Source: Halostagnicola sp. A-GB9-2 (GTDB taxonomy: Archaea > Halobacteriota > Halobacteria > Halobacteriales > Natrialbaceae). Taken from it: DNA of 64,000 nucleotides. Of this stretch, positions 1,841 through 51,217 are shown one piece after another (within the stretch, counting starts at the first letter, position 1; each line of letters opens with the position of its first letter). The DNA lies in NCBI RefSeq assembly GCF_030068615.1, contig NZ_JASJOC010000003.1, positions 372,001 to 436,000 of the forward strand. Reading direction: 5' to 3'. The translations under genes and the position numbers were made by a program. Below the pieces are notes generated by a model, which saw only the letters and a list, made by a program, of their open reading frames with translations, was not told the origin of the DNA and made no database searches.

Positions 1841-2065
1841 ATGTCCGAAGTCCCACCGGCACCACGGCGAGCAAGTGACGAGGTCAGAAATTCAGCCGAA
1901 GACACGACCAGTCTCGAGGTGTATTGCCATCGTCAGCACAAGGGCGAATGGATGAAAGAGGCTGAAGAACAGGGCTGCAGTCTCAGCCAGTATATCTACG
2001 ATCTAATCCAAGAAGCTCGATGGCATCGAAATGATGGTGAAATCCCGGTTAGTGTAGAGTACTGA
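1841..2065 (+). CDS. Small haloarchaeal protein, possible ribbon-helix-helix type
   Basis: This 74-residue protein has a variable N-terminus, then an EVYCHRQHKGEWMKEAEEQG stretch and a helix SQYIYDLIQEARWHR. That layout (strand, helix, turn, helix) resembles the small DNA-binding or accessory proteins found next to integrases and plasmid genes in haloarchaea. No integrase is present here. An AT-rich stretch (CTATCTATATGG, about 1821-1832) precedes the ATG. It is the first gene inside the island. The DNA-binding role is inference. Confidence 0.5.
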   Translation: MSEVPPAPRRASDEVRNSAEDTTSLEVYCHRQHKGEWMKEAEEQGCSLSQYIYDLIQEARWHRNDGEIPVSVEY

Positions 2066-2149
2066 CTTCGAGTATTGCTTACGTTCTCATCTTCACTTTC
2101 ACTTTGGATGGTGAACAATTTTTAATACTGTTATCATATCCTCCCTATA

Positions 2150-2478
2150 ATGTGGATCGAAGTCCTTCCGGCAGTAGTGATCGAAAACCTGGAAGTGATT
2201 GCCCTCATCGCGCTTGGGCTGTTAGTAGAAAAAAGGTACATCAGCAGACCTGCAATCTGGGCAAATGTCGCAGCAGTAAACGTCCATCTCTTTGACTATC
2301 TCGCAGTCGAAAATTGCTCGTCTGGTATGCGAATATCGGAATTGTCGTCGCACTCCTCGCATTTTTCACGTACGCTACGGAGGAGTCACTTCTTAGTTGG
2401 TACTATACGTTGGCATGGGCTTACTCTTCCCTCCCAGTTGCTGGCTTAGTATATCTAACTTGGGCGGGAGCATTGTAA
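2150..2478 (+). pseudogene. Membrane protein gene broken by a one-base frameshift
   Basis: The first frame starts MWIEVLPAVVIENLEVIALI and stays hydrophobic to about position 2312. Hydrophobic coding sequence then resumes one frame over as LLVWYANIGIVVALLAFFTY, through VAGLVYLTWAGAL, to a TAA at 2476-2478. The switch falls in an AAAA run; one extra A would join the halves into a protein of about 110 residues with three or four membrane helices. A sequencing error in the A run would give the same picture. Family unknown. Confidence 0.55.
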
Positions 2479-2575
2479 TGAACTCGTTAGATGATTTGAT
2501 CGATCACGTCCAGAAGCGATAGAGCCTTGATGCAGAAGAACGGAAACAATACGCCTCAATCAAGTCGAGTAGTAC
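2478..2575 (+). pseudogene. Short decayed ORF with internal amber codon
   Basis: An ATG overlapping the stop of the previous frame (TAATG) opens MNSLDDLIDHVQKR. An in-frame TAG at 2520-2522 follows, then SLDAEERKQYASI continues in the same frame. The composition on both sides looks coding, and the translational coupling suggests a former two-gene operon with the broken membrane protein. No homologue recognised. The evidence is thin because the piece is short. Confidence 0.3.
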
Positions 2576-2632
2576 TTGCTATTCCAGTTCAGAGATCAAT
2601 CTACCTGCTTCACGAACAGTGATCTGCTTTAG

Positions 2633-3493
2633 TTATAATCGTTTTACAAGATCGTCAACATCAGCACCCAACTCTGTCGATTCCTTTCCCTGAAACGTTT
2701 CTTTCTCTTTTTCAGCTGAGTGATCGATTTTCGCTCGCTTAGTTCGATCGACTGATTCCTTCTCGGCCGAGCGGTTGACTTTCACTCCTCTAGTTCGATC
2801 GGTCGAACCTTTTTCGTCAGCTCTCGGCTGTTTCCGGTCCAAAGCCACCTCAACTTCCTCTCCAAAGGTTGATTCATAACTTTTCCTATGAATTCTTTTC
2901 CAGACCAAGAATATTCCATCTGTGATCATCCAAGCGGCAATCCATACGATCCCCCCTGCAATCATTGACAAAATAAACATTGGAATCCCAAGAATCATCA
3001 ACAGGATTGCTTGTCCCATTATCCCAGGAAAGATGCCGGATAAACCTTCTTGATGGATCATCCATATCATTGGTGAAAAGAGAACTAATCCACCCGCAAT
3101 CCCACCAATTATCCGACCTATCCAGTCCCCAGGAGACTCACAATTTTCCCGCTTAAAGAATTCGTCCCCATCATTCTCGATGTTATCTTCATCAATATAA
3201 TTCTCGAGATTTTGCAATCCGAGAGCAGTCCACGAAACACCAGACCTGCTTGAAGAGCGGGATGATCCCGTAGTTGGTATTGGATGTCCATGTATTTTTT
3301 CATGACATGGATGACACACCGTTCGCAAATTCCTTAGATGATGTGATCCGCCTTTAGAAATTGGTTTGATGTGGTGGACGTGTAGCTGTCTGTTACTCGT
3401 GCCACAGTCTGTACACTGATATCCGTCCCGTTTGAGAACTCGTTTTCGGATAGAATTCCAATTTGAGGGATATTTGTCATTAGCCCATCCCAT
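2633..3493 (-). CDS. Membrane-anchored HNH endonuclease
   Basis: This 286-residue protein has an N-terminal HNH nuclease domain (about residues 10-70): Zn-type cysteine pairs C27/C30 and C60/C63, the HVHH motif at 38-41 and the closing H64/H68. A linker leads to hydrophobic helices near 127-147 and 155-197. A charged C-terminal tail carries two 17-residue repeats (230-246 and 247-263) of the form S-x-DRTxxxKxxxSAEKE. HNH nucleases cut DNA with one metal ion; membrane attachment is unusual and hints at action on incoming DNA or a stress-gated effector (inference). A TATA-like TTAAATAGAA lies about 20-28 nt upstream. Confidence 0.75.
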   Translation of the reverse strand: MGWANDKYPSNWNSIRKRVLKRDGYQCTDCGTSNRQLHVHHIKPISKGGSHHLRNLRTVCHPCHEKIHGHPIPTTGSSRSSSRSGVSWTALGLQNLENYIDEDNIENDGDEFFKRENCESPGDWIGRIIGGIAGGLVLFSPMIWMIHQEGLSGIFPGIMGQAILLMILGIPMFILSMIAGGIVWIAAWMITDGIFLVWKRIHRKSYESTFGEEVEVALDRKQPRADEKGSTDRTRGVKVNRSAEKESVDRTKRAKIDHSAEKEKETFQGKESTELGADVDDLVKRL

Positions 3494-3777
3494 CTATACC
3501 CCTTAGAGAATTCTATTTAAGATATTAAATATTTTGGTAAGAAGACGTTCTTCTCTATTTATCATATGGGGATCTCCGAGGCCATATACGCGGACGAGCA
3601 CTGACGATGTACATTCTATTATAAACTTAGCTGAATAATACTTACACCAGAACCGTCTAAATCGGTATATCATGTCTTCCGCGGGGACCAATCAGAATAC
3701 TACTGAACTGATCGAGATCGAAACCACAGGCTGACTGAACGGCTACCTGATGTCTCTTCGATCCAATAGAGTGAGAA

Positions 3778-4523
3778 GGCACTGTCTAGTTGAGTCAGTT
3801 TGAGAAGTGAGCAGGCCGTTGAGTTAATTTGGAATGAAGCTCGCAGACCTGCTTAGCAAGAGCTACGACGCGGATTTAGAAGAAGCTTGGGAGAACGAGC
3901 GGACGGCGACGCCCGCCAGGGCGTTCGCCGTCCGGCTCCACGCCACCGGTTGTTCGCTTCGGGAGACAACAACGATTCTCGCTGAATTAGGCGTTGAACG
4001 CTCTCATGGAGCGGTTTGGAATTGGGTACATCGGCTGGCTGACAGCGTTCCCGACCCGCCGAGGGCGAAGCCCTCGCGGGTCGCGGTTGACGAGACCGCT
4101 GTCAAAATCAACGTCAAATGGTCTTGGTTGTACGCTGCAATAGACCTCGATACAAAGTTAATTCTCGACGCCCAGTTGTTCGGACGCCACGGCACTGATC
4201 CGGCGGCTGCGTTCCTGCATGGACTCCGCGAGAAACACGATTTCTCCGAAGCAGTGTTTCTCGTCGATCAATTTGGGTACCGGACTGCACTTGCTCGATT
4301 AGGATTGAACGGCCGGGTTGACTATACCGATCGAAACCTGATCGAAAAGTGGTTTCACACCTTCAAAATGCGAGTTGACTGTTTCCATAACTCGTGGGTG
4401 GGCAGTCGGCGGAGTGCCCGCAAATGGATTGAGCAAGTTTGTGCATTACTACAACCATCAGAGACCGCATCAATCGCTCGATGGAAAGACGCCAGCTGAC
4501 GAGGTGCTAAACTAGACAGTGCC
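3778..4523 (+). mobile_element. IS6-family insertion sequence
   Basis: The element is 746 bp and bounded by perfect 14-bp terminal inverted repeats (GGCACTGTCTAGTT at 3778-3791 and its complement at 4510-4523). It contains one IS6-type transposase frame. The 8 bp on the left (AGTGAGAA) and on the right (GATGAGGC) do not match, so the usual 8-bp target duplication is missing. That suggests a deletion or rearrangement between IS copies after insertion. The right terminal repeat runs into the 3' end of mcrC. Confidence 0.9.
3834..4515 (+). pseudogene. tnp: IS6-family transposase, frameshifted near its C-terminus
   Basis: An N-terminal helix-turn-helix (about residues 25-60, LRETTTILAELGVERSHGAV) is followed by the DDE catalytic core: D in VAVDETAVK, D in FLVDQFGY and E in NLIEKWFH. 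After WIEQ the frame goes off register and ends at 4499. The expected tail FVHYYNHQRPHQSLDGKTP appears one frame over and ends at TAG 4513-4515 inside the terminal repeat. One extra base near 4435-4438 (CAAGTTTG) explains this. The catalytic triad is intact, so residual activity cannot be excluded. Confidence 0.8.
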
Positions 4524-5798: not shown

Positions 5799-8700
5799 TA
5801 GTCCGTAGTCTGTTCCTCGAATGCAAGTTCCCCTGTTTGGATCTCGGTTCGTAGGTCTGCTAATCGCTTATCACCGAAGTCGGGATGGCACCAATAATCG
5901 GGCCCATTTACGGGTCCAGTGTGCTCTGAGACCTGCTCGAGAATCGTTTGAGCAAGGCCCGAGAACGAATACTCCTCATCATTATAGAGCCATCTGACAC
6001 CATCGCTTTGACCGGTCTTACCCGTAATCTCACACCGCCAGAAGCGTTCGGATGAATCGTATGGCTGATCCGCCTCAGCCGGTACCTTCGATTCGTCGAA
6101 AACGAGCTGATCACCGGGATCTACTACTTTTTTGTCTAGGAGTAGATTGAGCGTGTTCTGTGTGTCTTCTTCCGTTTCTGTTTCAGGCTCTGCGAGTGAG
6201 ATCCCCTCGAGATTTGCGAGAGTTCGACGGAGATCGTCAGCTGTGAAATCTGCGATCTCTTCCATATCCCAGTGGAACAGGCGATCACCGCTGCCCCTGA
6301 AGAGTTCCTCTCGAATCCGATCGAACTGCCCGAAGTAGTACTCCTCGAGTAGCGGAAGGATCTCGTACTTCCAGGCATCCAGAACATCTGGGACGTCCTC
6401 GAGACCCATTAGGTACGAATGGCCGATCTGCTTCCCTTTTCCGAGGTCTGGCGTATCTACGATCTGGTCATTGAGTTCGCGAAGGGCCAAAATCGAGAGG
6501 GCGACTAAGCTTCGGTGAAGATCCGGTTCAGTTCGAGCTGTTTCGCGTACATCCTCGAGGTCCTCGAAGTCATCATAATAGTCGATGAGAGCTGTGTAGT
6601 TCGGCGGGAACGAAACGAATCGGAATCGGCGTCGGAGAGCCGCATCTACGAGCGCGATCGATCGGTCTGCCGTGTTCATCGTTCCGATAACGTAGAGGTT
6701 CGGTGGAACGGAAAACGACTCTCCGGAGTGCGCTAACGTAATTTCGACTTCGTCTTCTTCTCCGAGCCGTTTATCGCTCTCGAGTAGCGTAATCGTTTCT
6801 CCGAAGATCTGAGCGAGGTTCCCGCGGTTGATCTCGTCGATTATCAGTACGAAGCGAGGCGGCTCATCGACGTCCTCGTTTTGTTGGGCGTGGTGATATG
6901 CTCGCTCCGCCCGAGTGCAGATCCGCTTGAATACGCCGTCTTTGATATTGTATTCGACTGCCCCGTCCTCAGCTTCGGCGGTCAATCCCTCGAGGAAGTC
7001 TTCGTACGAGAACGAAGGGTGGAACGTAACAGTCTCGAGCTGATTCGATGAGGGTGTGTATCCCGGTTGTTGGTTAAGCCACCAACGGGCGAAACGCTGA
7101 GCAGTATACGTCTTCCCGGTTCCTGGCGGGCCGTAAAACACGAGTTGGCCCGTGTTTTGGAGCTGTCGTTCGATCGTCTCAGCATCTCTTGGTCGCTCAT
7201 CGGGTGTTACCAGTTCATCGCCACCTCGCCCATTGTGGACTCCTCTCAGTAGCTGTCTGAACTTCCCATGGTCGAGATTCGGAGTGACACCACTCTCTTC
7301 CTGTAGTCCTCGGAGTGATGCGACGAATACAATCTGTCCGGCTGTGAGATCCGAATTCTCGATTGTCCCCGACTCGACTGAATCAGCGATCTCCTCGAGT
7401 CGATCAGCGTTCTCTTCGTAAAGCTGGACGATCTGATCGAATTTTACTCGATCCGTAGAGGAGACATCCCCCTCTATGAGATCGGCCCGGTCAAGAGCTC
7501 TGGTCCAATCTCGAATAATCGACCTCGCTACGTCTATCGTGGGCCACGTGTCGACCTCATCAGTTTGCTCGAGCCGGGCCTGAATGTCTTCCGTGGCTTC
7601 CTCAATACCATCGTAGGTGTCTGCAGGTGGTAGCCCGATCGATGATTCGAATTCGTACCCACGTTCCTCCAGTAGTTCAGCAAGATATGGAGACTCCTCA
7701 GCCAGGATTTCTACGAGTTTGTCGGGACACTGAGTGAAGTAGTGTCCTTGATTGAGCGATAGCCGCTTATCGTAGAAGATCTTCTCGCTGTCTTCACGAC
7801 TCTGGCGTAGTCGCTCCTGGTACTCCGGTTTTTCGAGAAGGTCATCATAGACATGTATCTGGGGCTCGATGCCTTCGTACTCTCTGAGCCATCGTAGGTA
7901 TCCCCCCTGCTCTTGTTGTTCCTCAGTCCAGCGATCATCTGGCGGCCCCTCAAAATCCTCGTGCAGCTCTGAGTCGATTACCGAGACGCTGGCAAATTGG
8001 TGCTGATCCTGTAGGAGGTGGATGACAATATCTCCAACCTCTGCTTCACGCATCGTCTCATACCGCTTCCTACCACCCTGATCCCGACTGGGCGACATGA
8101 GTGCTTTCCCCAACCTAAATTCACCCTCCTGTTTATAGGGGCGATTTTGCGTCTGCGTTTTCTCGATCCAAACTGTTGGATTAGAGCTAATCTTCTCTCT
8201 ATCCTCTCTATTAGCTTCGAATTCGTCAGAATCGTCCCCGGCATGGGCTGAATCAGGGTCTCGTTGGACAATGTTCTCGTCATCGAAGGCAGACAGCATT
8301 AAATCGTAGAATCCGGTGTCCACAATATTTTGATAGGCTGCTACGAGCTCACTGAGGTCGGTAATAAGGTCGTTTTCACCGGGGAATTGGCTAGCATCAT
8401 AGGAACGATAACAAATTGTTGAGTCGCCGTAGTACTTGCTTCTCCCTGTCAATAGTCGGCTTGGGAGGTCGATCGCCTCCATTTCAAAACGTTTGAGGTC
8501 AATTTGCGTTCTAAGTATCTTTGCCCGTCTTGAGAGAATTTCCTTCGTACGCTCAAGACCATAGTTCTCCTTGAGTTCGGTCATCCCCTGATTGAGTGTC
8601 AGGAAAAGCCGATCCTCAACCGTGTCGAATAGATATACAACATACAGTCCATCTTGTGGGTTATTAGCAATTCGAGTGTCAAAAACACCAATCCAGGGGA

Positions 8701-9769
8701 TATTCGCCATTCGACCTTTCCCGGTCGACCCTTGGATATTCAAATGCTCAGGCTGAATCCCGTAAGAGTCTGTATTTTTATGGTCTAATCGGGGTCGGAG
8801 TTCCTCTGGTAGTTCGGAATTGATCAGGGACACAACGGGATGATCCCAATTGCTCTCAGATTTTGCTTCCTCGTAGTGAGTTAGCGCGTATCGAATCTTC
8901 TCATTAAGTGTGGAATGAGGAACTGGCAAATCGATCGGTCTATTGCTGAAATTCAGTGCTTTTCTTCGGTAACGACCGTCACCAAGGAACTCTATTTCAC
9001 TATTGTCCCGTAGTTCTTGGAGTGTTCGTCGAGTAGATGCCTCTCTAGTATCGTTTTCAGGGAATTTATTCGTGAGGCTTTCGTTAGAAAACTCTAAAAA
9101 ATGTTTCAGGTCGAATTTCGTTGTCTCGTTTTCATCACAGTATCGAACAATTTCCCCTCGAATAACATCACGCCAACTACTGGCAGAAGAGGTGAGGTTG
9201 GTTTGAGGGTTATTTGACTCTTTAAGGGCGGAATCATCTTCATCACCGACGATTTCAGCGGCTAATTCATAGCCCTGCTCGGTTAGCTGATAGCGATCGT
9301 CTTCAGCCTCTGTTACGAAGCCGAGCATCTGTAACCACTCACGGTGGCGGCCAGCAACCCCTGTACCCCCTTCAAATTCTTCGTTCCGAGCGAGGACTTC
9401 CCGAAATTCTTCTTCAGAAAGTGGCTGCTCGAGGAGGGCATTGAGAAGCTGTTTGAACCCCTTGACGTTCTCTTGAAGCCCTTCGAAAATGACTCGCGTA
9501 TCACTTGTTTGGAGGAACTCTTCAGCCCGTGTGGTTAGCGAATAGTGTTCAGAAACCCTTTCCAAGAGATCGATCGTCTCGAGAAAACGCAATCGACGCT
9601 CTACACCGGTTTGGTTCTGAGCGTTTGTTGTCTCCAAAATCCACTCTGTTAGCTCCTTTTCAGATGGGTAATTGTCCCCAATGTACTCGAGAGCGACTTC
9701 TAGGTTGCTGAGACGAGTATCAAGGTCCCCAAAATAACGGTCTGTCGTGAGACGTCTTCCGTCTCCCAT
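5798..9769 (-). CDS. mcrB: McrB-type AAA+ GTPase with DUF3578 and EVE-like domains
   Basis: This 1323-residue protein drives McrC. Domains in order: a winged-helix-like region (about 1-170); an MrcB_N/DUF3578 domain (about 280-490, GRMANIPWIGVFD near 356); a likely EVE/PUA-type modified-base reader (about 535-700, starting TVWIEKTQTQNR); and the AAA+ motor with Walker A GPPGTGKT near 883, the McrB signature FHPSFSYEDFLEGL, Walker B VLIIDEINRGN near 978, sensor GTMNTADRSI near 1033 and RRRF arginines; then a 150-residue tail. Bacterial McrB is about 460 residues, so this is a greatly extended form. Two or three stacked N-terminal domains suggest modification sensing; the target is unknown. Confidence 0.88.
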   Translation of the reverse strand: MGDGRRLTTDRYFGDLDTRLSNLEVALEYIGDNYPSEKELTEWILETTNAQNQTGVERRLRFLETIDLLERVSEHYSLTTRAEEFLQTSDTRVIFEGLQENVKGFKQLLNALLEQPLSEEEFREVLARNEEFEGGTGVAGRHREWLQMLGFVTEAEDDRYQLTEQGYELAAEIVGDEDDSALKESNNPQTNLTSSASSWRDVIRGEIVRYCDENETTKFDLKHFLEFSNESLTNKFPENDTREASTRRTLQELRDNSEIEFLGDGRYRRKALNFSNRPIDLPVPHSTLNEKIRYALTHYEEAKSESNWDHPVVSLINSELPEELRPRLDHKNTDSYGIQPEHLNIQGSTGKGRMANIPWIGVFDTRIANNPQDGLYVVYLFDTVEDRLFLTLNQGMTELKENYGLERTKEILSRRAKILRTQIDLKRFEMEAIDLPSRLLTGRSKYYGDSTICYRSYDASQFPGENDLITDLSELVAAYQNIVDTGFYDLMLSAFDDENIVQRDPDSAHAGDDSDEFEANREDREKISSNPTVWIEKTQTQNRPYKQEGEFRLGKALMSPSRDQGGRKRYETMREAEVGDIVIHLLQDQHQFASVSVIDSELHEDFEGPPDDRWTEEQQEQGGYLRWLREYEGIEPQIHVYDDLLEKPEYQERLRQSREDSEKIFYDKRLSLNQGHYFTQCPDKLVEILAEESPYLAELLEERGYEFESSIGLPPADTYDGIEEATEDIQARLEQTDEVDTWPTIDVARSIIRDWTRALDRADLIEGDVSSTDRVKFDQIVQLYEENADRLEEIADSVESGTIENSDLTAGQIVFVASLRGLQEESGVTPNLDHGKFRQLLRGVHNGRGGDELVTPDERPRDAETIERQLQNTGQLVFYGPPGTGKTYTAQRFARWWLNQQPGYTPSSNQLETVTFHPSFSYEDFLEGLTAEAEDGAVEYNIKDGVFKRICTRAERAYHHAQQNEDVDEPPRFVLIIDEINRGNLAQIFGETITLLESDKRLGEEDEVEITLAHSGESFSVPPNLYVIGTMNTADRSIALVDAALRRRFRFVSFPPNYTALIDYYDDFEDLEDVRETARTEPDLHRSLVALSILALRELNDQIVDTPDLGKGKQIGHSYLMGLEDVPDVLDAWKYEILPLLEEYYFGQFDRIREELFRGSGDRLFHWDMEEIADFTADDLRRTLANLEGISLAEPETETEEDTQNTLNLLLDKKVVDPGDQLVFDESKVPAEADQPYDSSERFWRCEITGKTGQSDGVRWLYNDEEYSFSGLAQTILEQVSEHTGPVNGPDYWCHPDFGDKRLADLRTEIQTGELAFEEQTTD

Positions 9770-9790
9770 ATGAAATCAAATATCGGGTGA

Positions 9791-9800
9791 AGTATAAAAC
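9791..9800 (-). promoter_or_regulatory. TATA box of the mcrBC operon
   Basis: On the minus strand the sequence reads GTTTTATACT, centred about 26 nt upstream of the mcrB ATG (9769). That is the spacing seen for leaderless haloarchaeal transcripts. No other start signal lies between it and the gene. Confidence 0.5.
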
Positions 9801-9920
9801 ATGGTTACATTTGGTATTGAAAGCCGTATTGTGATTTATTGGTGTCACAGAACTCCTATACTGTATTTTGGGAGGAACTAGGCGGAGAGTTAACATAGAT
9901 GCGAAATAAGGAATTACATA

Positions 9921-10781
9921 ATGATCGGGTGTCCTGAATGTTCAGACCAGTTCTCAGGATCGGATGGACTTGTAACTCACTTATCTGACCAACATGGCCT
10001 CTCAAGAATTGAGGCCAGAAAAAGGATTGTACAAGGGACAATGGATGGATCTAACCAAATAGACTCTAATAGCTCTAGAACCGGTGAGATCTCCGAAGAG
10101 TCAGACTCTATACCAACCGATATTCCGAAGCGACAATGGATGTTAAACCAGTATCAAAACCTCTACAACAATCTCGGGTATTTACCATACCGAGCAGAGC
10201 TTGACAAATTAGAGCACTACGATGAAGAGGATTATGTTGATGAATTTGGCTCTTTGATGGGTGCTGCCGTACTTGCTGGTGTATCTTCGATTGATCCAGA
10301 GGAGTACAATCATGAGGCAGATGGCTCAAATCAGTACAGTGAATGGGAACTCATCAATGGTATCTGGAGGCTATACGAACTGACCGGAAAACCATCATCC
10401 CGAATGATGGATCAATATGGAGATTTCAGCCTACAGGCGTACCAATATCGGTTCGGAAGCTGGTCTGCTGCCCTAAAAAAAGCTCACATCAACGGTCAGG
10501 ACCCCTCGATACCATCAACACGAGATCCAAAGAATCGACACTATGCGAGCTCGAGATGGCAGCAATTACGGAAAAAAGCTCTCGAAAGAGATGGCTATCA
10601 ATGCCAGCGCTGCGGAATGGATGAGGGGACACATCAAGAGCAGTTCGGTGTTGGATTAAACGTCCATCACATCGACGATGTAGCCGAGTTTGAAGAACCA
10701 GAGGAAGCGGACTCGATCGATAATCTGGAATCGCTTTGTGTATCGTGCCACGGGAAAGAGCATCCCTTTACTTCTGAGTGA
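9921..10781 (+). CDS. Zinc-finger/HNR/HNH endonuclease
   Basis: This 286-residue protein has a C2H2 finger at the N-terminus (C4, C7, H20, H25). Two homing-endonuclease-associated repeats follow (about 75-120, with LGYLPYRAEL and DEFGSLMGAAV; about 125-190, with TGKPSSRMM and RFGSWSAALKKA). It ends in an HNH domain (about 205-283) with DGYQCQRCG, NVHHID and LCVSCHGKEH. HNR repeats bind DNA, so this is likely a site-specific nuclease of homing or defence type. It has a low-GC coding style and sits next to mcrBC at the right end of the island. No intron or intein host is visible. Confidence 0.8.
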   Translation: MIGCPECSDQFSGSDGLVTHLSDQHGLSRIEARKRIVQGTMDGSNQIDSNSSRTGEISEESDSIPTDIPKRQWMLNQYQNLYNNLGYLPYRAELDKLEHYDEEDYVDEFGSLMGAAVLAGVSSIDPEEYNHEADGSNQYSEWELINGIWRLYELTGKPSSRMMDQYGDFSLQAYQYRFGSWSAALKKAHINGQDPSIPSTRDPKNRHYASSRWQQLRKKALERDGYQCQRCGMDEGTHQEQFGVGLNVHHIDDVAEFEEPEEADSIDNLESLCVSCHGKEHPFTSE

Positions 10782-48027: not shown

Positions 48028-48594
48028 TCAGGTTGCCGTCTCCTCGAGTACCGCGATTCGATGGGTGTCAACAGCGAGCGTCACGGTAACCGTATCACCC
48101 GTCCCTAATCGCGGTTCGTTCGTCGACGCCAGTCGGACGCTCGCAGATTCTCCTCCGCGCCAGATCGAATCGCTTCTGGCATTGAACGGTCCGGTCGGCG
48201 TCTCATCGAACCCCTCCGCACCGACGAACGGAACGGGCGGCTGTGATTCGAGGGGGTCGCCGTTTATTTCGATGGTTATCGCGAGTTTGTCGACGTCGAT
48301 CGAGTTTCCGCCGATGTGTTCGAGTACGATCGTCGACTGCTGACCGTCGGCAGCGAGATCGAATCCGGCCGCCGGCGGAGACGGTGCCGTTCCAATCGAG
48401 TTTGCACCGGCTGCGACGACGGCTGCGAGAACGATGGTAACGACGAGCAACGTCAGTATCCCGACGAGCGAGCTGACCGCTCGAGTCTCCGCTTTCGTTC
48501 CCCGCGGAAAGTCTGAATTTCGCGTTTGGAACGCCCTATCGTTCGAAGCCACATGGAACGATGGATCCGTTATCCGGAATAAACCCTCGGCCAA
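48028..48594 (-). CDS. Archaeal type IV pilin-like protein
   Basis: This 188-residue protein has the pilin signature KAETRAVSSLVGILTLLVVT: a basic stretch, a likely prepilin-peptidase site just before the hydrophobic helix (about 38-68), then a beta-rich domain with GFDLAADGQQSTIVLEHIGGNSIDV. PilA-type pilins are cut by PibD and assemble into pili for adhesion. The N-terminal leader of about 35 residues is long, so the real start may be further in. Its ATG directly abuts the stop of the secreted protein upstream (48595), so the two form an operon. Confidence 0.75.
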   Translation of the reverse strand: MAEGLFRITDPSFHVASNDRAFQTRNSDFPRGTKAETRAVSSLVGILTLLVVTIVLAAVVAAGANSIGTAPSPPAAGFDLAADGQQSTIVLEHIGGNSIDVDKLAITIEINGDPLESQPPVPFVGAEGFDETPTGPFNARSDSIWRGGESASVRLASTNEPRLGTGDTVTVTLAVDTHRIAVLEETAT

Positions 48595-49812
48595 CTAGGG
48601 TATCGTCAGCTCGACTTCCCCACCGTTTGCCTCGACTTCGACGGTGTACTCTTCGTCCGGTGGCAAGAGCCAGATTGTCCCTTCGTCGTCGGTCTCACCG
48701 GCCTCGATTCCGTCGATAGAAACGGTTGCAGACTCGACGGGATCATCTGACTCCGAGTCGTTGACGATGATCTCGATCGGACCGTTCGACGGCGTCTCGT
48801 TGTGCGTGAGAACCAGGCCGTTGTCTGTCTCCGTCGTCGTTTCGGAAATCGGTAACGAATCGAGGCTCAACTCCTGGACCTCGTGGTAGATCTCGCCGGA
48901 GTTACTGTCGAGGAACGTAGAGAGGACTCCCTGACTGTGGGATATTTCGGCGTGATAGAAGTTCGCTGGGTCCTCGTTGCGATCGCGGAAGCTCGTTTCA
49001 CCGTCTTCTGCCGCCCACGGGTACAGGTCTTCCGTGTGATGGAACGCATCTATCGTTTCATCGAACTCGTCCCAACCATCTCTATCTCGGTTGTCGAAGC
49101 GAGTCGTTTCGACGACGTACGTGTCATCGACTATCGTTTCGAGTTGATACCCGTTTTCGGAGGTTTCGATCTCGATAGTCTGTCCCGTTGCAGTTTCCTG
49201 CGTCGTTCCATCGGCTAGCGATCGAACCGACCCCTGTTGCATGTCGAGTCGATGTTCGTCTTCGGTGAGGTCGATGCTGTAGCCCAGAATCTGGTCCTCT
49301 TTGTCGTCAATTTCGTCGATCGTGTCAGCGAGCGAGTTCGCCTCGTTGTGGTTCCTGATGAGCTTTTGGATGAACTGTTCGCTAGAGATTTCGTTGTTCG
49401 CGTGAGCGGCGGCGGCCGTGTGCGAGCGGTCCTCGAGCTCGTTCGTTCGGTTCTGGACGTACTCTCTTGCCGACCTGATCATCGAGATCTGCTCGTCGCT
49501 CGTCGCTTCGTCGAACTCGTGGTCGAGGATTGTGTATCGATCGTATTCGCTCCGCAGTTCGTCGTCAGCGGTCGCGAGTTCGGTCCCTAATGTTGTGCTA
49601 TAGTCGACCGTGTCCGTCCGAGTCTCCCCGGTTAGTTCGAGGCGGTTCGTCGTGCCGTCGAGGGCCGTCGGTTCGACGGATTGGACGGTCGTCGCCTCGT
49701 ATCTCTCATCAACGTGGCTACCAGCGGCTGATGGATTCGCCGCACTGACGGCCATCGCTGGGAGGGAGAAGACGAGAAGCAACGCGAGGAGGGCGGGCAT
49801 CGCGTTCGTCAT
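48595..49812 (-). CDS. Secreted haloarchaeal surface protein (DUF7096-like)
   Basis: This 405-residue protein has a Sec signal (ALLALLLVFSLPAMAVSAAN, cut near 25). The middle is helical and Asp/Glu-rich with NRTNELEDRSHTAAAAHANN, followed by a beta-rich part. The C-terminus is a carboxypeptidase-regulatory/Ig-like module (VESATVSIDGIEAGETDDEG). There is no membrane anchor, though it may bind the partners next door. It resembles conserved haloarchaeal proteins of the DUF7094/7096 kind, function unknown. The 157-bp region to the divergent HTH gene is shared. Confidence 0.65.
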   Translation of the reverse strand: MTNAMPALLALLLVFSLPAMAVSAANPSAAGSHVDERYEATTVQSVEPTALDGTTNRLELTGETRTDTVDYSTTLGTELATADDELRSEYDRYTILDHEFDEATSDEQISMIRSAREYVQNRTNELEDRSHTAAAAHANNEISSEQFIQKLIRNHNEANSLADTIDEIDDKEDQILGYSIDLTEDEHRLDMQQGSVRSLADGTTQETATGQTIEIETSENGYQLETIVDDTYVVETTRFDNRDRDGWDEFDETIDAFHHTEDLYPWAAEDGETSFRDRNEDPANFYHAEISHSQGVLSTFLDSNSGEIYHEVQELSLDSLPISETTTETDNGLVLTHNETPSNGPIEIIVNDSESDDPVESATVSIDGIEAGETDDEGTIWLLPPDEEYTVEVEANGGEVELTIP

Positions 49813-49969
49813 TACATTACTCTATAACCCTCTGGTACAAAAATGAGTCGACAAGTGACGATCGATAGTAATCGCGGACTACCACCAGACTGCGAACGCA
49901 CCCGACGAAGTAATACGTGATTTTCCGATGGAAAGTGTTTTTTCCCCTGGGAAACCACCGATTGTACGT

Positions 49970-51217
49970 ATGCGGTTATCGACCGCCTTCACGCTTGCCC
50001 TCACAGCCCTCCTCGTTACGTCGACGCTCGGAGCAGTGGCCGCCTCTCCATCTACGCCCGCACCGACGGTGGACGATCGAACCGCCGTCCACGCTTTCAC
50101 CGCAACGACTGTCCAACACTCGGACAGTTTCGGGGCCGCGGATCCGAAACAGGTCTTCACCATCAACATAACCGAATCTGGAGACGCTGAATGGACCGTC
50201 GAAAGTCGCTTCATTCTGGAAGACGACGACGAGACTGAACGGTTTATGCAGTTCGCTACCGACCGGGTCTCCAACGACGACTACCCCATAACGGCGTTCG
50301 ATCAGGCCAGAGCAAACGCCGAGCAGGCGGTCGATCGAGAGATGTCGATTGAGGACGACCAGTGGAACGAGCCCCGTACCGAGGCACCGACAGAAGACGA
50401 ACACGACACGATCGAGGCCGATGACGACCTCGATGTCGAAGACGCGAAAATCGGAGTCATATCCTATTCGTTTACCTGGACGAATTTCGGGAAGGTCGAC
50501 GGTGACCGTATCTACGTCGACGATGTGTTCCAGAACGATGACGGTAGTCTGTTCTCCTTCCTCAACAGCAACCAACAACTCGTTATTCAGGTCCCGCCAA
50601 ATTACGAAGGGGCGACCCCGGGCGAGGACGACGGTGTCTACACCTGGACCGGTCCCACGGAATTAGACAACGAACCCGACCTCGTCTTCCTGTCGTCGGT
50701 CGGTACGAACGGTGGTGGCTTCGACGTCGGATGGATCGGGGGTGGACTCCTCCTGTTCGCGCTCGTGTTCGGCATCGGCGGTTATCTTCTCGCTCAGCGC
50801 CGCTCGGATCTCGAGAAGCTTTCCGAACGCGTTCCGTGGGCTTCACTGCCGGGAACTGCGGGCGGCGCGGACGGTGATGCCGGTGCGGAGGGCAACTCTT
50901 TCGGGACGAATCGCTCGGTTCCGCCAGCGAGCGAGACTCCGGTTTCTGACGGCCGTCGCGACGCCGAACTCGAGTTTGACGAGGTCGAGGATGTCGATCC
51001 GTCGCTGTTGAGTGACGAGGAACGCGTCCACAGAATGCTCAGTGATAACGGCGGTCGAATGAAACAGGCGACGATCGTCAAAGAAACCGGATGGTCGAAC
51101 GCGAAGGTTTCCCAACTGCTCTCGAAGATGGACGACGACGAGGAGATCGAAAAACTCCGAATCGGTCGCGAGAACCTGATCACGCATCCTGAAGTCGACC
51201 CAACCGAGATCGACTGA
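49970..51217 (+). CDS. Membrane-anchored sensor with cytoplasmic winged helix
   Basis: This 415-residue protein has a signal peptide (MRLSTAFTLALTALLVTSTLG), an outer beta-rich domain (about 30-245, FTINITESGDAEWTVESRFI, then EDDQWNE), one membrane helix (about 250-275, GWIGGGLLLFALVFGIGGY), and an acidic linker. It ends in a winged-helix domain (about 345-405) with ERVHRMLSDNGGRMKQATIV and SNAKVSQLLSKMDDDEEIEKL. The layout (outer domain, single helix, DNA-binding domain inside) is that of one-component receptors (DUF7345/DUF7343 types in haloarchaea). It may control the divergent surface-protein/pilin operon (inference). Confidence 0.8.
   Translation: MRLSTAFTLALTALLVTSTLGAVAASPSTPAPTVDDRTAVHAFTATTVQHSDSFGAADPKQVFTINITESGDAEWTVESRFILEDDDETERFMQFATDRVSNDDYPITAFDQARANAEQAVDREMSIEDDQWNEPRTEAPTEDEHDTIEADDDLDVEDAKIGVISYSFTWTNFGKVDGDRIYVDDVFQNDDGSLFSFLNSNQQLVIQVPPNYEGATPGEDDGVYTWTGPTELDNEPDLVFLSSVGTNGGGFDVGWIGGGLLLFALVFGIGGYLLAQRRSDLEKLSERVPWASLPGTAGGADGDAGAEGNSFGTNRSVPPASETPVSDGRRDAELEFDEVEDVDPSLLSDEERVHRMLSDNGGRMKQATIVKETGWSNAKVSQLLSKMDDDEEIEKLRIGRENLITHPEVDPTEID

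Follow-up and report, generated by a model that had tools for sequence, protein, structure and literature searches.

Transmembrane transcription regulators, including those that act together with companion proteins, constitute a described class (PMC10269533), and in Halobacteria the membrane-bound arCOG00381 proteins have been predicted to regulate arCOG02425 pilins (Makarova et al. 2016; PMC4858521). In H. volcanii, HVO_0307 is an AglB-dependent N-glycoprotein, while HVO_0306, named 'Probable transmembrane glycoprotein/HTH domain protein', is an O-glycoprotein candidate (PMC8241124). Little is known about haloarchaeal sensing of the envelope and of surfaces, and studies of membrane-bound transcription factors in archaea are few. 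The locus described here, which combines the genes of a membrane-bound regulator, a secreted protein and a pilin with a conserved DNA site, was initially thought to have no described counterpart; in view of the 2016 pilin-regulator prediction (PMC4858521) and the known class of transmembrane regulators (PMC10269533), that statement was too strong. Judged from sequence and models, the locus is nevertheless likely to encode an unstudied surface-sensing switch present in almost all haloarchaea.

The locus lies within a stretch of 64,000 nucleotides from Halostagnicola sp. A-GB9-2 (the window) and comprises a type IV pilin-like gene (48028..48552, minus strand), a gene encoding a secreted protein with a helical DUF7096 domain, a DUF7094 domain and an Ig-like Fn3_arc domain (48595..49812, minus strand) and, facing them, the gene of a membrane-bound winged-helix regulator (49970..51217, plus strand). 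Open reading frames, Pfam domains and structure models confirm that the three genes are real and that their order, their strands and the 157 bp divergent intergenic region (49813..49969) are as given by the sequence-only reading; in many distant families this region is close to 150–160 bp. The same reading held that the two minus-strand genes abut at 48594/48595. The open frame of the pilin indeed reaches its first possible start, a TTG at 48594 that touches the stop codon of the DUF7096 gene. Translation more probably begins at the GTG at 48552, in agreement with a congeneric relative. The regulator most likely starts at the ATG at 49970, not at the ATG of the reading frame listed from 49928, which belongs to a conserved DNA element. 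The trio is flanked on one side by menG-like methyltransferase and A-type ATP synthase genes and on the other by radical SAM, isochorismatase-like, DUF373 and prenyl synthase genes. Elsewhere in the window, positions 2001–4000 and 8001–10000 have a GC content of about 0.45–0.46, compared with about 0.62 over most of the window, and could represent a mobile or foreign region.

The regulator had been described as a receptor with an outer domain, one helix and a winged helix, an architecture supported by Pfam matches far above cut-off to DUF7345 (118 bits) and DUF7343 (103 bits) and by a structure model built from a 57-sequence alignment. In the model, the signal peptide is followed by an ordered alpha/beta outer sensor domain (DUF7345; 50126..50710, plus strand; residues about 53–247), a hydrophobic transmembrane helix with a basic inner flank (50729..50830, plus strand; residues 254–287), a linker modelled with low confidence and a confidently modelled winged helix (DUF7343; 51005..51190, plus strand; residues 346–406). 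The protein therefore possesses both the DNA-binding domain and the membrane-spanning segment expected of a transmembrane transcription regulator, and its topology fits outside sensing and inside DNA binding as candidate functions. The winged helix is nearly invariant: of the 35 columns without variation in the class-wide alignment it holds 29, including a large part of the putative recognition helix WSNAKVSQLLS, and it resembles MarR/ArsR-type and Z-alpha folds (Z 9–10 over 57–73 residues). Beyond the winged helix, Foldseek searches with the whole regulator model returned just weak, partial matches, and the VIA structure-match list for the regulator covers the winged helix alone. Profile searches against solved structures yielded nothing convincing for the regulator or the DUF7096 protein, no NCBIfam model fits either of them, and a scan of genome contigs returned just two close relatives. 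The linker of ~55 low-confidence, probably disordered residues that joins the transmembrane helix to the winged helix could also serve a release mechanism, in which a ligand would trigger proteolytic cleavage close to the membrane and so release the winged helix as a soluble factor; the conserved block, however, includes no protease gene, and we regard such a mechanism as unlikely.

The DUF7096 protein has a Sec-type signal peptide, is without a C-terminal anchor and matches DUF7096 (168 bits), DUF7094 (106 bits) and Fn3_arc (79 bits) far above cut-off. Its model is built of helical and beta parts and an Ig-like C-terminus, for which a structure of E. coli alpha-2-macroglobulin is the best match (Z 12.1 over 73 residues). 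The pilin combines a Pilin_N domain (52 bits, far above cut-off) with a class III signal, R-A↓V-S-S, that precedes a hydrophobic helix, and hence has the sequence features of an archaeal type IV pilin. In the pilin alignment R37 is present in 57/57 sequences and position 41 is occupied by P in 50/57 (S in the window), while the H-domain is hydrophobic. The C-terminal beta domain is strongly conserved (QPPVPF..GF..P.GPFN...W..GE), which appears to differ from the expectation for a variable adhesive major pilin, and no pilus assembly genes are found in the conserved block.

Among 195 Halobacteria genomes, taken evenly across the order, DUF7096 was found in 188 and DUF7345 in 193. Where the places of both genes are listed (121 genomes), the two are divergent in 120, with domain edges 227–506 bp apart, and the pilin adjoins DUF7096 in 57 of 61 loci, so that the genes are not, as would have spoken against a signalling system, rarely neighbours in relatives. 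In the sole exception among the 121 genomes (G063), DUF7096 and the pilin are kept, an unrelated gene occupies the place of the regulator and the DNA element is gone. In a whole-phylum sample merely three genomes outside the order match DUF7096, and marginally, which suggests that the family is essentially confined to Halobacteria. Adjacency alone proves little, since synteny is general in this part of halobacterial genomes: ATP synthase, menG, pilin, DUF7096 and regulator follow one another in this order in most of 60 loci from across families, in which the far side is rearranged. The trio might accordingly be three unrelated genes held in place beside ATP synthase and menG, the regulator having an ordinary core promoter, and the fixed position of menG and the ATP synthase subunits in most loci is what such frozen synteny would produce. 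Weighing against it is the joint absence of the whole block beside menG in families f9 and f11 and in one f10 genome (f10:g22), the DUF7345-DUF7343 proteins remaining in these genomes being located elsewhere, and so are four loci (L063, L070, L088 and L186) in which the trio is intact and no menG or ATP synthase was found beside it.

The earlier proposal left open whether the surface protein or the pilin would be the signal. Losses, paralogous clusters and rate correlation point to the DUF7096 protein as the likelier of the two. No pilin stands between DUF7096 and the methyltransferase, which adjoin each other with the regulator/DUF7096 pair kept, in loci L177, L179, L201, L077, L048 and L086 (families f2, f3, f4 and f10), corresponding to loss in at least four lineages; locus L049 ends too early for the presence of the pilin to be judged. 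A second cluster in the same genome (contig C23, 75151–78129; L192:7151–10129) encodes a DUF7345-TM-DUF7343 regulator paralogue and a DUF7096-like secreted protein with a low-complexity tail, as well as a DUF7345 protein with a transmembrane helix and no winged helix; all genes of this cluster lie on one strand. Similar pairings of regulator and DUF7096-like protein occur in four further genomes (G003, G012, G015 and G037), a repetition elsewhere that again argues against frozen synteny. Rates were compared by partial correlation of pairwise distances after removal of housekeeping divergence, with four controls and 35–43 loci. The sensor-DUF7096 correlation (partial r 0.47–0.58), although moderate and based on 35–43 loci, was the highest under each control, compared with 0.30–0.48 for the sensor and its own winged helix and 0.14–0.33, near the control pairs, for the sensor and the pilin. 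These results, drawn from sequence comparison, point to the regulator and DUF7096 as the core of the system and to a dispensable pilin. They also bear on the possibility that the regulator senses membrane stress, ions or a small molecule, with DUF7096 and the pilin as mere targets and the DUF7096 protein as a structural surface protein or pilus-associated adhesin. Such an arrangement would be in keeping with the commonness of divergent regulator/target pairs, the repeated detection of HVO_0307 as a glycoprotein in proteomes and the predicted helical, beta and Ig-like fold of the DUF7096 protein, but it does not account for a sensor whose divergence tracks DUF7096 as strongly as its own winged helix, or for second clusters that again pair the two families; we consider it possible, though rather doubtful.

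The divergent intergenic region contains a class-wide element, ATRGAAAGNNTTTT (49928..49941, plus strand), which mostly starts 39–44 bp upstream of the regulator ATG (range 38–49, with one outlier) and is found in nearly every genome, even where the remaining intergenic DNA is unalignable. It scores at least 10 of 12 in 59/61 loci, compared with 0.4 % in Markov-shuffled sequence; the remote members L179, L181 and L183 score poorly (8–9 of 12). At 21.9 bits, the 14-mer is about 10 bits stronger than the menG promoter (11.7 bits) and the DUF7096 promoter (12.7 bits) of the same loci, the latter represented in the window by the TATA-like TTTTTGTA (49836..49843, minus strand), whose position is kept in relatives. 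A motif upstream of atpI reaches 19.3 bits, but at 16 bp before the start it lies where a ribosome-binding site would sit or the gene upstream ends. Exact copies of the ATRGAAAGNNTTTT pattern number 21 in 31 whole genomes, with 14 at this locus and seven elsewhere, the latter number being that of a reversed control pattern (7) and thus the chance frequency. As the element occupies the core-promoter position of the regulator gene, it may be an operator that overlaps BRE/TATA, or else a core promoter that is unusually fixed. Its BRE/TATA distance is also what frozen synteny with an ordinary promoter would predict, yet its strength far exceeds that of the neighbouring promoters, and together with the joint losses, the trios without a nearby menG and the repeated pairing this makes frozen synteny very improbable. 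Related motifs are located at −20 to −24 from the T run in 25 loci (0.2 expected) and at −40 to −46 in 12 loci (0.3 expected). In a subset of families (L040–L099), [GA]A[CT][GC]TTT is repeated ~22 and ~42 bp upstream of the T run of the element, a spacing of two helical turns. At promoter distance, ~44 bp ahead of its start, a Drg-type GTPase gene also carries the element as ATGGAAAGGGTTTT (L111; C1:407168–407181 of the same genome). Other interpretations of the intergenic DNA were discarded: the dyad TTTCCCCnGGGAAA, which recurs in just part of the window's own family, and the dyad TTTTCC-GAT-GGAAA seen in the window were rejected as class-wide operators, and the idea that a reading frame, upstream or extended, begins at ATRGAAAGNNTTTT was dropped, given that the element's distance to the ATG is no fixed multiple of three and its own ATG is often ATA.

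These data are best read as a transmembrane one-component regulator that would control its own gene and have DUF7096 for its extracytoplasmic partner or main target. We infer from homology, models and topology that one helix anchors the regulator, with DUF7345 outside and, inside, the MarR/ArsR-like winged helix tethered by a flexible linker. The winged helix would bind ATRGAAAGNNTTTT, and in some families also the phased copies 22 and 42 bp upstream, thereby setting the transcription of its own gene as well as of the DUF7096-pilin operon that diverges from it; such direct control from the membrane is in keeping with a conserved element that overlies the regulator promoter. DUF7345 would read the secreted DUF7096 protein, either directly, as a co-sensor or ligand, or through its cell-surface state, so that the switch would report on the cell surface and tune DUF7096 and pilin output, the pilin, judging from its losses, presumably being an accessory output. 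That a class-wide haloarchaeal transmembrane one-component switch reads DUF7096 outside and controls the divergent operon and its own gene is, on balance, probable. Counting against it are the core-promoter position of the element, its recurrence ahead of the Drg-type GTPase gene, the low element scores of L179, L181 and L183, the general synteny of the region and G063, which keeps DUF7096 and the pilin in the absence of the regulator. The more specific proposal of a surface-sensing switch that defines the class, in which the secreted, glycosylated Ig-like product of the divergent operon would be the dedicated ligand of the regulator and a single site per genome would serve across Halobacteria, is advanced tentatively, with an appreciable chance of being correct.

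In H. volcanii, a control genome that carries both the DUF7096 and DUF7345 families, HVO_0306, HVO_0307 and HVO_0308 lie between idsA2 (HVO_0303) and menG (HVO_0309) with the ATP synthase genes (HVO_0311-0317), and by gene order and description they are the apparent counterparts of the regulator, the DUF7096 gene and the pilin, respectively. The candidate O-glycosylation of the apparent regulator counterpart fits an outside location of DUF7345. No function of HVO_0306/HVO_0307 is reported, and no mention of these DUF numbers was found, in the literature retrieved. A near-universal gene set thus comes with a putative operator and ligand as well as with tractable H. volcanii counterparts (HVO_0306-0308), and the question is therefore directly testable.

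With regard to described systems, CsmR (PMC13286277) was considered and rejected as the present regulator, being a different one. HVO_0306-HVO_0307 share the genomic position and fitting descriptions, although they are known as glycoproteins alone (PMC8241124). The predicted arCOG00381/arCOG02425 pair likewise ties a membrane-bound regulator to haloarchaeal pilin genes and probably represents the same association, but the prediction occupies one sentence and includes no DUF7096 protein, operator or partner analysis (PMC4858521). ArnR/ArnR1 of Sulfolobus are a further case of membrane-bound one-component HTH regulators in archaea and control type IV pilus-like structures (PMC6396743); they possess an N-terminal HTH, a HAMP-like and sensing domain and two C-terminal transmembrane helices and have no DUF7096 partner, whereas the C-terminal winged helix and single transmembrane helix of the haloarchaeal regulator place it outside the ArnR family. 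ToxR/ToxS, TcpP/TcpH, PsaE/PsaF and MyfE/MyfF (PMC10269533) similarly unite a DNA-binding domain and a transmembrane helix in one protein, often with a companion gene and often in the control of pilins or fimbriae. As regards a companion that would act on the sensor domain, the haloarchaeal locus shows a conserved pairing and a correlated divergence with DUF7096, which is thereby a candidate for such a part. In contrast to this group, the haloarchaeal DNA-binding domain is C-terminal and MarR/ArsR-like, following a signal peptide and an outer domain, and the candidate partner is a large, secreted protein with helical and Ig-like parts that is divergently encoded.
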